The notes beneath the pieces were generated by a model. It was not told the DNA's origin. It saw nothing but the letters and a program-made list of their open reading frames with translations, and did not search any database. From a virus, in IMG/VR virus record IMGVR_UViG_3300011113_000262, positions 1 through 22,723 of that record: 22,723 nucleotides of DNA. One strand, written 5' to 3'. Shown piece after piece: positions 11,239 to 15,156 of the stretch. The position numbers were made by a program, and so were the translations under genes. Each line of letters begins with the position of its first letter. Position 1 is the first letter of the stretch.

Positions 11239-11472
11239 TCACGCCGGGGGGAGGGTCGAACGATAGTACGCCAGCACCCGCTCACGCAAGTGTTTGGAGA
11301 CGTCTCGTTTTCCCGAGAACCAGCGGTAGACCGCCGCCTTCGTGACGTTCAAGGCTTCTGCGACATCAGCTACCGGAACCTGCCGATAGATGCACAGACG
11401 CCCCAGTTGCACGCCAAGCAGGCTCTGGTCCGCGTCGGAGTTGAGCCGAACGATCTTTGCGGTGTAGGACAT
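11239..11472 (-). CDS. Small helix-turn-helix DNA-binding protein
   Basis: It encodes 77 residues from ATG 11472; a TTG at 11535 would add 21 poorly conserved-looking residues and was not chosen. Residues about 33-55 (VADVAEALNVTKAAVYRWFSGKR when read across the stretch) match the helix-turn-helix pattern of XRE/Cro-type or homeodomain-like regulators: a first helix with ADVAEAL, a turn at NVT, and a recognition helix AAVYRWFSG. It lies between the SSB-like gene and the primase-helicase, with a 108-base hairpin-rich leader upstream. It may regulate the replication operon or be a replication initiator; both are inference. No strong Shine-Dalgarno is seen before the chosen ATG, so the start is uncertain. 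Confidence 0.75.
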   Translation of the reverse strand: MSYTAKIVRLNSDADQSLLGVQLGRLCIYRQVPVADVAEALNVTKAAVYRWFSGKRDVSKHLRERVLAYYRSTLPPA

Positions 11473-11580
11473 GGTGTAGGGTGGGGCGGTCCCGGCGCAA
11501 CCCGGGACTATTGCAGGAGGGCAGGAGACCTCCAAGAGGAATCCCCATGCTCACGGCGCTTGCCGCCGCCCCAATTCTGA
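11473..11580 (-). promoter_or_regulatory. 108-base gene-free leader with several short hairpins
   Basis: This spacer lies between the SSB-like gene and the helix-turn-helix gene. It holds three local inverted repeats: tcccgg/ccggga (11490-11495 with 11502-11507), ggagg/cctcc (11516-11520 with 11529-11533) and cggcg/cgccg (11554-11558 with 11564-11568). No T-run follows any of them, so they do not look like terminators. They could be an operator region or mRNA leader structure for the downstream regulator, but no promoter boxes were convincingly recognised. Confidence 0.35.
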
Positions 11581-12582: not shown

Positions 12583-12993
12583 TCAGGCTCTCCTAACAGT
12601 AACCGTGTACTTGGTTTCGACATTCATGCCCTTGGGCATCTTGTCTGGATTTGCTTTGAGGAACTCCCCCATAGCTTTCTGCGCAACGCGCCTCTCAAGT
12701 AGATCGAGTGCTTGGTTCTCCTTGACGAAGTTGTGCATAGACTCCCAATCGGAAGTCCAGTAAGAAGTTCTGACACCACGGATGATGGTGCCTGCGCCGG
12801 TCTTGATACTGTCTGCGCCGGCACGCTTGCAGACATCCAACAGTGTGTGTTCGATCAGGTCCATCTGATCTTTGATCTCTTTGTCCTTGGCCTCGTATTC
12901 GGTGGACAACGCAGCGCGGGCATCGCGCATCTTGATGTACGCCTTGACGAGCTTTTCAGTGGGCACTTGAGGTGCCTCGGTGCTGGGCTCCAT
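12583..12993 (-). CDS. Conserved phage protein in replication operon, helical (136 aa)
   Basis: It starts at ATG 12993; the reading frame extends further upstream, but this ATG has an AGGAGA Shine-Dalgarno four bases before it. The protein is a helical stretch (KLVKAYIKMRDARAAL, then a Glu/Lys/Asp-rich helix) followed by a compact domain with SYWTSDWESMHNFV and a C-terminal beta-like TKYTVTVRRA. I recognise this as a recurring phage hypothetical found beside SSB-like and helicase genes, but its biochemical role is unknown to me. Its stop abuts the start of the SSB-like gene (TGAATG), so the two are translated together; a role in recombination or replication is inferred from that pairing. Confidence 0.8.
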   Translation of the reverse strand: MEPSTEAPQVPTEKLVKAYIKMRDARAALSTEYEAKDKEIKDQMDLIEHTLLDVCKRAGADSIKTGAGTIIRGVRTSYWTSDWESMHNFVKENQALDLLERRVAQKAMGEFLKANPDKMPKGMNVETKYTVTVRRA

Positions 12994-12997
12994 GGGA

Positions 12998-13003
12998 TCT
13001 CCT
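12998..13003 (-). promoter_or_regulatory. Ribosome binding site deciding the start of the 136-aa gene
   Basis: The minus strand reads AGGAGA four bases before ATG 12993. The upstream in-frame extension (to 13104) has no such site and would run into the nested inverted-repeat region, so this site fixes the start. Confidence 0.7.
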
Positions 13004-13016
13004 AGAGTTAAAGGGT

Positions 13017-13187
13017 GTGGACTTGATGGTGGTGGCTGGCGCTGATCTCCAGCTTCCCTGCGACGACAGGTAGAGGCTCCATCGTTTTCAATCTTGCGTA
13101 CCACTAGGACTCAGCCGCAAGCAACGTCGCATCATTCTGCGAACTTCCCCGCGCATCAGCCTGCGCTCTCACCACCATCAAGTCCAC
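13017..13187 (-). repeat. Nested inverted-repeat element, possible structured RNA or cruciform
   Basis: Within the 215-base gap between the helicase stop and the 136-aa gene start, a perfect 18-bp inverted repeat (gtggacttgatggtggtg at 13017-13034 with its complement at 13170-13187) encloses three further nested complementary pairs: gctgat/atcagc (13041-13046 with 13155-13160), tgcgacg/cgtcgca (13059-13065 with 13125-13131) and cttgcg/cgcaag (13093-13098 with 13116-13121). The apical loop is 17 bases. All pairs are in register, so one strand could fold into a long interrupted hairpin. A competing local hairpin gcgca/tgcgc lies at 13151-13166. On the minus strand it would be the leader of the 136-aa/SSB-like pair. 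No poly-T follows it directly, so it is not a simple terminator. Strand and function are unknown. Confidence 0.65.
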
Positions 13188-13208
13188 GATTGCATTCTGT
13201 CCGAGAGT

Positions 13209-14780
13209 TTACGTGGCAACTTTGGGCGTGTCAAGCACCTCCTGTCGATAGAGGTCGAGCAGGGTGCTCATGTCCTCGGTCTTGGCGTCCAACGCATCGT
13301 AGAGCTTGCGCTCCACTTCTGTACCGCAGAGCCTGACCACAAGGCAGGGGTTCTTCTGCCCCGAGCGGTGCACCCGGGCATTGGCCTGATGGTAGGTCTC
13401 GTTCGATGTCACGGGCCCCCACCAGACCACGGTGTTGGCTGCGTGCAGGGTCACCCCGTGCGAAGCCGCCGCAGGCTGGATGAGCAGCACCCTCGGGTCA
13501 GGCTGAGTCTGGAAGTCCGCGAAGATCTTGTTGCGCTGCCCCACCGGCACGCTGCCGTCGATCACATCCACAGTGAGTTCATCCTTCTTGAGCCTTTCAT
13601 GGAGCACTGTGATCGTGTGCCGGAAAGGGACGAACACCAGCACCTTGTGGGTGCTCTCTTCGATGGCTTCCAACAGCACGTTGTACCGGGTAGTGATGTC
13701 GAACTCAACAGAGTTGCCGTCGTCAGAGTACACCGCACCGCAGGAGACTTGAAGCAGCTTGTTGAGGTTGGTAGCTGCATTGACCGATGTGACAGTCTCA
13801 CCACCCGCCGCCATGATGAACTGCTCCTTCAACATCTTGTAGTACTTGGACTGCTGAGGAGTCAGCGGTACGTTACGCGTTGTGTACAGGAGTTCAGGCA
13901 GATCCAGGCAGTCGTCTTTGGTGAACCTGATAGCAGGCTGCAAGACTTGGTTCACCACCTCCTGGGCGTTCGACTTTGCCTTCCACTTGAACTGCGTGAT
14001 CTTGTTCATCACACGATCACGGAACGAGTAGAAGTAGCTGGGCACTGACTTCGGGTCCATCATCTTGGCAAGACCGTAGGCATCGGTCGGTGCTTGCGAT
14101 GCAGGAGTACCTGTTGCCATCCACAACCATGTGTCAGGGGTGATCAGTTGATTGATCGCCTTCCACCGCTTGGTCGTCGCAGTCTTCACAGCGTTTGCTT
14201 CGTCAATGATGATGAGGTCAAAGCCACCCGCCTTGAGTTCTTCAAGGACAGTCTCAACACCATCAAAGTTGATCACCACAAACTCAGCGTCTGACGCGAT
14301 GATCTTGGCACGCTTCTTGCGGTCACCATAGGCAACGTCCACCCTGCGGTGCATCAGCGTCTTGAACAAGTCGGCCTGCCACGCTGGCACCATGATGGAC
14401 AGTGGGCAGATGACCAGCACCCTGCGGATGAACTTGCGTGTCAGCAGGTAGTCCGCTGCCCAGGCAAACGAAGCGGTCTTGCCCGTGCCCGGGTCGTTGA
14501 AGCAGAACGCACGCTTGTGCAGCGTCATGAACGCTGCCGTCGTCTTCTGGTGGTTGAACGGCTTGAAGATCCCAGGCCACTTGTAGCGGCCCAGGATAGG
14601 TGACGGTACGTTCTTGACCCCCAGGTTGCGCAGTACGCGGGCTTCATCCAGGCCCCACCAGACTAGGACATCAGCACCTTGTGGGTGCTGTGCTACCACC
14701 TGTGCTTTCGGCACAGTGTTTAGAACCCGCTCCGGGTTGCGTAGCCGGAGCAAGAGCGCTTTGTTGTTGATTATCTGCAT
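13209..14780 (-). CDS. SNF2-type superfamily 2 DNA helicase
   Basis: It encodes 523 residues from ATG 14780, preceded by a weak GGGAAG site; the longer upstream start is unlikely. Helicase motifs in order: Q/N-rich FNHQ before motif I; Walker A DPGTGKT (about 96-102); motif II IIIDEAN (about 190-196); motif III ATGTP (about 222-226); and the SNF2 signature motif VI HQANARVHRSGQ (about 464-475). The two RecA-like domains lack long insertions, so this is a compact phage form. Expected role is ATP-driven translocation on double-stranded DNA, supporting replication or recombination or stripping host proteins. The first 36 codons or so overlap the end of the upstream 161-aa gene in another frame. 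Assignment to SNF2-type is firm from the motifs. Confidence 0.93.
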   Translation of the reverse strand: MQIINNKALLLRLRNPERVLNTVPKAQVVAQHPQGADVLVWWGLDEARVLRNLGVKNVPSPILGRYKWPGIFKPFNHQKTTAAFMTLHKRAFCFNDPGTGKTASFAWAADYLLTRKFIRRVLVICPLSIMVPAWQADLFKTLMHRRVDVAYGDRKKRAKIIASDAEFVVINFDGVETVLEELKAGGFDLIIIDEANAVKTATTKRWKAINQLITPDTWLWMATGTPASQAPTDAYGLAKMMDPKSVPSYFYSFRDRVMNKITQFKWKAKSNAQEVVNQVLQPAIRFTKDDCLDLPELLYTTRNVPLTPQQSKYYKMLKEQFIMAAGGETVTSVNAATNLNKLLQVSCGAVYSDDGNSVEFDITTRYNVLLEAIEESTHKVLVFVPFRHTITVLHERLKKDELTVDVIDGSVPVGQRNKIFADFQTQPDPRVLLIQPAAASHGVTLHAANTVVWWGPVTSNETYHQANARVHRSGQKNPCLVVRLCGTEVERKLYDALDAKTEDMSTLLDLYRQEVLDTPKVAT

Positions 14781-15156
14781 TCTTAGCTTCCCAACGCAAA
14801 ATAGCTTCTGACACAAACCGGTCCCAGTCTCGCTTTGTGACGCTCTCTTTTACTACGTCTAAGATGAGATGTCCTAACCCGGGCCGATCTTTTCTTGGCT
14901 GCAGGATATGTATCTGCGTGCTTAGTTCTTTGTGTTCTGCACCGAGCACCTTTCTTTGCTCTTTGGTAAGGGGCTCGTTAGTCAGCCTGTCTTGGATGTG
15001 CCTAATCTTGGCCCTTAGACATTCAACTTGGTCAGGTATTGAAAGGGTCTCTGGAGACCCCCAGCCCAACAGATTTACGCCACGTACGGAGGGTCGAGTT
15101 GAGAATGAACCCTCGCGCTTGTAAAACTGTTGTTTCTCAGCGGTGGTTTTGTACAT
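14671..15156 (-). CDS. Unknown phage protein (161 aa), overlaps helicase start
   Basis: It starts at ATG 15156 with a GAGGT site about seven bases upstream that overlaps the stop of the exonuclease gene. The middle (residues about 40-90) is a charged helical pair with KEQRKVLGAEHKEL; residues about 92-125 form a compact segment (GHLILDVVKESVTKRDWDRFV). The last 35 residues or so are low-complexity (Gln, Ala, Pro, Gly, Thr) and lie wholly within the 110-base overlap with the helicase gene. The helical core resembles small phage hypotheticals found beside helicase genes, but no function is recognised. It sits between an exonuclease and a helicase, so a replication or recombination accessory role is plausible but unproven. 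Confidence 0.7.
   Translation of the reverse strand: MYKTTAEKQQFYKREGSFSTRPSVRGVNLLGWGSPETLSIPDQVECLRAKIRHIQDRLTNEPLTKEQRKVLGAEHKELSTQIHILQPRKDRPGLGHLILDVVKESVTKRDWDRFVSEAILRWEAKNADNQQQSALAPATQPGAGSKHCAESTGGSTAPTRC

Follow-up and report, generated by a model that had tools for sequence, protein, structure and literature searches.

A widespread structured RNA of tRNA-like topology in phages, prophages and phage-plasmids

Introduction

The only sizeable gap in the replication operon of an uncultivated viral genome (IMG/VR record IMGVR_UViG_3300011113_000262, of which the whole stretch of 22,723 nt was analysed and is called the window below) contains a long inverted repeat, which raises the question of what this repeat is and on which level it acts. 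An earlier note, based on the sequence alone, had described an 18-bp perfect repeat enclosing three further complementary pairs, foldable into a long interrupted hairpin, and had listed a phage noncoding RNA, an RNase III processing site, a translational switch and a replication-origin cruciform as candidates. The present analysis identifies the feature as a member of a widespread family of structured RNAs carried by phages, prophages and phage-plasmids, unannotated and outside Rfam 15. The existence of the RNA family and its fold is virtually certain; its function is treated with graded confidence in the Discussion.

Results

The inverted repeat and its operon

The replication operon lies on the minus strand and leads from DNA polymerase A and exonuclease genes (from 18.8 kb) through a SNF2-type helicase to a 136-aa protein, followed by a second protein and a DUF927 primase/helicase-like protein. 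The repeat occupies the gap between the helicase stop codon and the gene of the 136-aa protein, which gave a weak, sub-threshold match to Mu Gam/Gp157-like proteins. The features of the locus are as follows.

13209-14783, minus strand: SNF2-type helicase gene
13206-13234, minus strand: sigma70-type promoter TTGACA-17-TAAACT, overlapping the end of the helicase gene
13017-13203 (about ±2 nt), minus strand: acquired cassette, absent from the close relatives L004, L007 and L010; consists of a 16-nt lead-in and the RNA element
13170-13187, minus strand: P1, 5' strand, 18 nt (7-9 bp in most members)
13151-13166, minus strand: P2 hairpin GCGCA-GGCUGA-UGCGC, in the "D-arm" position
13156-13160, minus strand: P2-loop side of the kissing pair, GCUGA
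13054-13150, minus strand: hypervariable middle, 97 nt (12-166 nt in the family)
13035-13053, minus strand: P4 hairpin GCUGG-AGAUCAGCG-CCAGC, in the "T-arm" position, abutting P1 directly
13041-13045, minus strand: P4-loop side of the kissing pair, UCAGC
13017-13034, minus strand: P1, 3' strand
12999-13003, minus strand: AGGAG, Shine-Dalgarno sequence of the gene downstream, not part of the element
12583-12993, minus strand: first gene 3' of the element, encoding the 136-aa protein (phrog_13900)

The 18-bp repeat was present as described, with perfectly complementary arms at 13017-13034 and 13170-13187 separated by 135 nt; in 150 rounds of dinucleotide shuffling applied to the whole window, perfect repeats within 300 nt reached at most 15 bp. 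The region was also free of any convincing gene, as had been stated. Folding of both strands, suggested in the earlier note as a check, gave values much better than those of shuffled sequences on either strand (z about -4.5).

The architecture inside the repeat had to be revised. A rod containing all inner pairs was 12-25 kcal/mol worse, and the rod-like nested fold was rejected on energy. Among the three inner pairs, the 6-bp GCTGAT/ATCAGC proved real, but as a loop-loop kissing pair and not as a continuation of a rod; the 7-bp TGCGACG/CGTCGCA and the other 6-bp pair, CTTGCG/CGCAAG, fall within the variable middle and are missing from the minimum-energy fold. The gcgca/tgcgc hairpin is likewise real and corresponds to the conserved P2, but the competing role assigned to it in a translational switch was discarded, the Shine-Dalgarno sequence lying beyond P1 and being unsequestered in the predicted fold.

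The promoter, which recurs in almost all close relatives that possess the gene pair, agrees with the suggestion that the element is a minus-strand leader of this pair. The transcription start is predicted at about 13199. As the promoter ends at 13206 on the minus strand, the element would form the extreme 5' end of the operon transcript, and the minus strand is taken, from the sequence, as its transcribed strand. A separate observation concerns a conserved dyad, CAAAGTT...AACTTTG, located at 13203-13225 in the window and also present in relatives; it covers the promoter spacer and the -10 region and is likely a repressor operator of this phage group.

Absence of the element from close relatives

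A total of 80 IMG/VR loci encoding the 136-aa protein were compared, nearly all of them with the helicase directly upstream. In the closest locus, L004 (98% identical protein), and in L005-L011, L014 and L053, the gap measured about 35 nt and contained no element, with the promoter, the Shine-Dalgarno AGGAG and the start conserved. The same arrangement of two genes and promoter, with only the ~35-nt gap, was found in phages 91-98% identical in the next protein. When aligned to L004, L007 and L010, the window carried about 187 extra nt (13203-13017), and no target duplication was detected at the insertion in comparison with L004-L014. None of the other contigs that have the gene pair carries the element in this gap, which precludes a covariation analysis at this position.

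The earlier note had regarded relatives that keep the flanking genes without complementarity as evidence against the structure. Such relatives do occur at this site, yet homologues are found elsewhere in other phages, and judging by the close relatives alone would have dismissed the finding. The element in the window is an acquired cassette, its homologues occupying other places in other phages. The lead-in of the cassette, ATGCAATCGTGGA, also occurs in the element of another phage, L462.

Two other insertions were observed around the same promoter. In L034 (IMGVR_UViG_3300037502_000788), an unrelated 86-nt insert (2873-2958) occupies the same promoter-proximal site and consists of a 12-bp perfect closing stem with three inner hairpins (z -4.3). 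No homologue of it was found in phage records, and it gave no model or blast match to the element, so it was rejected as a homologue and is considered a look-alike only. Five loci have a protein gene of ~700 nt inserted after the helicase gene and just upstream of the conserved promoter; this gene (starting MQPLNYCRQLIK...) is located at L012:2148-3000, L017:2193-3000, L028:2151-3000 and in relatives.

Further structured repeats were noted in related genomes. A second conserved structured element (L190:7583-7701, L193:7670-7786, L197:19802-19877) is closed by a 14-bp stem, CTGC(YYARAKYG)CT, in which changes are compensated, and has a middle 48-91 nt long. Another, shared by L190:5474-5664 and L201:13172-13335, has 13-bp ends GGGACCGGGTGTC, a CACGC-rich middle and an adjoining intrinsic terminator. 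A 13-bp perfect inverted repeat at L207:10624-10718 and L223:4716-4810 apparently falls inside the coding region of a small HTH gene similar to window 11239-11535. Inverted repeats of these related genomes were not accepted as homologues, as their sequences differ and neither blast nor model homology was obtained.

Identification and distribution of the family

An exact search with a 17-nt stem arm alone returned 37 chance matches, none accompanied by the second arm. No Rfam 15 family matched the window above its gathering score, and relaxed thresholds yielded noise only, in line with the statement of the earlier note that no named element was known. The family was revealed when the 201-nt region was compared with phage records by sensitive blastn, which gave two-piece matches (query 26-52 and 146-184) within the same records but at differing spacing, including HK620, HK633, Klebsiella phage ZCKP8 and others. 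Two conserved blocks thus recur at variable spacing in unrelated phages.

With the HK620 copy as query, matches were obtained in 375 phage records (INPHARED) and, among 5,426 complete E. coli genomes, in 1,030, with 249 of the E. coli places on plasmids. Another copy used as query matched 485 plasmid records; all these blast counts include partial matches. The HK620 copy itself had no Rfam match above the gathering score, with hits listed up to E = 10. Among the listed matches, none carried an RNA annotation; most were annotated "none", and some lay beneath hypothetical proteins. Blast matches and exact-pattern scans of IMG/VR together provided a set of at least 150 distinct further copies with both blocks. 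As the pattern scans favour copies with the conserved blocks, loop conservation is overstated.

Carriers include phages P1, HK620 and BASEL Bas80, and the hosts named in the phage records read or scored were Gamma- and Betaproteobacteria. The window carries a single copy, and one to three copies per genome were found elsewhere; P1 has two, and one P1-like plasmid has three in tandem. Searches with the covariance model R2 (see below) found no copy in T4, lambda, P22, HK97, N15 or Mu, and HK022 gave 14.1 bits (E = 0.05). Neither the core sequence nor a description of the element was found in open-access PMC text. The RNA fits none of the described families against which it was tested; structured RNAs as such are known from phages.

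Conserved fold and covariation

The same pairs form in nearly all of 151 copies. P1 consists of GGUG/CACC with three to five outer pairs, usually 7-9 bp in total compared to 18 in the window. After a 3-nt linker follows P2, with the consensus GCGCA-GGCUGA-UGCGC, then the middle and P4, with the consensus GCYGG-AGAUCAGCR-CCRGC, directly after whose 3' strand the closing strand of P1 begins.

In an alignment of 46 diverse copies, 97.5% of cells paired, and 78 double-changed cells were counted against 19 expected (0/500 shuffles); slid controls paired in just 27-50%. When the window was left out, 15 of the 23 pairs were changed on both sides, with 79 double-changed cells where shuffles gave 20.7 (0/500); the slid controls failed again. 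Model R2, built from the alignment excluding the window, nevertheless detected the window at 65.7 bits (E = 4.7e-17), with P1, P2, P4 and both blocks present, and its best match in 53 loci of the window phage's relatives reached 20 bits. G-U pairs occurred as intermediate states in P1, P2 and P4 as well as in the kissing helix.

The copies nearest to the window, L462 and L399, share with it a 5' lead-in (ATGCAAYCGTG) and a long P1. Across these three copies, four pairs of the long P1 were changed on both sides and 98% of cells paired. The compensatory stem changes sought by the earlier note were thus obtained both in the family alignments and in the long P1, and there is support for its candidate, a phage noncoding RNA read from the minus strand as the leader of these two genes.

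Evidence that the variable middles share a fold was weak (median z -0.8). The middles of Alcaligenes phage CASP1 (L565:1494-1610) and Iodobacter phage PhiPLPE (L308:639-757) are similar, so the middle may be under constraint in this subfamily.

Kissing loops

Nearly every copy, the window included, has a P2 loop (GCUGA) complementary to its P4 loop (UCAGC). As these loops are nearly invariant, a scan was aimed at copies without C at the fourth pairing position of the P4 loop. The intact variants recovered had U at this position, which keeps a G-U pair. Two loop pairs were lost in L561, and in the degenerate copies L547 and L548 P2 was lost along with the P4-loop motif. A double change from G-C to A-U was found in PhiPLPE and in L564; the strong conservation of both loops leaves few double changes, which weakens the case for the kissing pair.

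In the window, the conserved fold lies 1.7 kcal/mol above the pseudoknot-free minimum when the kissing pair is excluded. The kissing duplex alone is estimated at -7.3 kcal/mol, which outweighs this difference, so that the conserved fold is plausibly the best one by this calculation.

Strand, terminators and tRNA genes

Intrinsic terminators within 150 nt 3' of the element on the same strand were found in 26 of 112 non-redundant copies, compared to 2.6% of random positions, and on the other side in 2 of 112. A tRNA gene within 500 nt accompanied 16 of 150 copies, always on the same strand, compared to 2.9% at random; the remaining 134 had none at this distance. For tRNA T-arm motifs, the enrichment was about 14-fold upstream of copies, 12-fold within the middle and 10-fold on the downstream side. 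In L409:528-740, a complete tRNA-Pro (CGG) gene was called within the middle. In ZCKP8, tRNA-Arg and tRNA-Met lie directly 3' of the copy, and tRNAs also lie downstream of the copies in SOVA965 and CASP1. In Bas80, tRNA-Met follows the copy, both being oriented against the surrounding structural genes; copies opposite to both neighbouring genes argue for an RNA gene. The neighbouring genes were diverse, and no constant protein partner was found among them.

Discussion

The topology of the element is that of a tRNA: an acceptor-like closing stem, a D-arm, an insert, a T-arm and an elbow, with no anticodon or CCA. It shares with tRNA and tRNA-like structures, including the tRNA-like domain of tmRNA, a closing stem of 7-9 bp, a short linker, a hairpin in the D-arm position, an insert, a 5-bp T-arm hairpin abutting the closing stem, a loop-loop elbow contact and the proximity of tRNA genes. 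It differs in lacking the anticodon arm and CCA, in its hypervariable middle, in a Watson-Crick kissing elbow, and in loops of 6 and 9 nt with a fixed, unrelated sequence. ARAGORN called no tRNA in the window, no tmRNA with a tag peptide was called there, and the Rfam tRNA model did not match the element. The likeness is one of topology alone and does not indicate common descent.

On this basis, the following mechanism is proposed. A copy was gained as a cassette just 3' of the replication-operon promoter; given this position, the element would be the first ~185 nt of the operon transcript, transcribed as its first segment. The RNA would fold during synthesis, be retained or trimmed to a stable RNA, and act in trans by presenting its tRNA-like acceptor, T-arm and elbow surface to a host factor that handles tRNA, such as a processing enzyme, a tRNA-targeting nuclease or a ribosome-linked factor. 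The middle, variable as it is, would be a domain that is either tolerated or exchangeable. The P2 and P4 loop sequences, which differ from those of tRNA D- and T-loops, speak against mimicry, as does the absence of a tRNA gene within 500 nt of most copies (134 of 150), and the leader positions of the copies in the window, HK620 and P1 are compatible with a cis role too. The account as a whole, comprising family, fold, cassette gain and mimicry in trans, has about an even chance of being correct, and the trans-acting mechanism taken singly falls somewhat short of that.

Several known RNAs resemble the element in part. The T4 stable RNAs C and D are encoded in the T4 tRNA cluster and have no known function; they are likewise stable phage RNAs near tRNAs, but T4 gave no R2 match. 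The put RNAs of phage HK022 are structured RNAs of operon leaders without a partner protein gene, and the element resembles them in all these respects; the differences are the score of HK022 with R2, the copies situated outside leaders and the lack of an Rfam match. The prophage sRNAs AgvB, AsxR, Pas and STnc100, described as base-pairing sRNAs (PMC13192938), are similar in prophage location and nearby tRNAs, but Rfam has separate families for AgvB, AsxR and STnc100, and none of these matches the element. GOLLD and ROOL, large ornate RNAs of unknown function (PMC12286853), are also structured RNAs of bacteria and phages, but far larger, of other folds and already named.

The main rival is a cis-acting leader, in which the emerging transcript would target RNA polymerase or the mRNA of which it is part, for example through put-like processive antitermination or operon autoregulation. 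The window copy begins about 12 nt after the predicted start of the replication operon, the HK620 copy has a leader position between pR'/qut and the terminator tQ, and the two copies of phage P1 are flanked by trnT and trnI, within the leader of the ban operon, which C1 controls, and overlap hypothetical genes of the opposite strand. Many copies are also preceded by Q-like antiterminator genes and followed by genes for holins or terminase small subunits. Against such a role, 23 of 132 copies, about a sixth by rough gene calls, are oriented against both neighbours, a terminator directly follows 23% of copies, close relatives of the window phage keep the operon without the element, and HK022, the put phage, matches R2 only marginally. 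A cis role is considered unlikely, though it is the reading that competes most seriously.

A simpler possibility is an RNase III site or a 5'-protective hairpin stabilising the operon mRNA, for which the long stem alone would matter. It fits the 18-bp stem, which is very stable and stands at the transcript's 5' end, as well as the independent insert of L034, which places a closing stem at the same spot. Conservation, however, peaks in P2, P4 and the loops and not in the length of P1; a plain hairpin would need none of this conservation, which makes such a role improbable.

A DNA-level element (a cruciform origin, an attC-like folded recombination site or a MITE-like mobile repeat) would suit a cassette with inverted ends that moves between phages and varies in its middle, but it is very improbable in view of the insertion without target duplication, the strand-specific terminators and same-strand tRNAs, the G-U intermediates, and the low copy number, with no clear copy in the examined records of relatives. 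The origin cruciform of the earlier note found no support, and a MITE was rejected on the missing target-site duplication and the single copy in the window.

Returning to the trans-acting tRNA mimic, it would constitute a new class of phage RNA with a kissing-loop elbow and an exchangeable middle, present in hundreds of proteobacterial phages including P1, and decoying or occupying a host factor that handles tRNA or targets it in defence. This is put forward tentatively, with slightly more reserve than the mechanism itself. A family present in the classical phage P1, in HK620, in a BASEL phage and, by blast, in about one fifth of complete E. coli genomes has apparently been missed by annotation and by Rfam 15. 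Its fold and strand are defined sufficiently for function tests in ordinary laboratory phages. If the RNA is a tRNA mimic, it would bear directly on tRNA-targeting defences and on the reason for the presence of tRNA clusters in phages.
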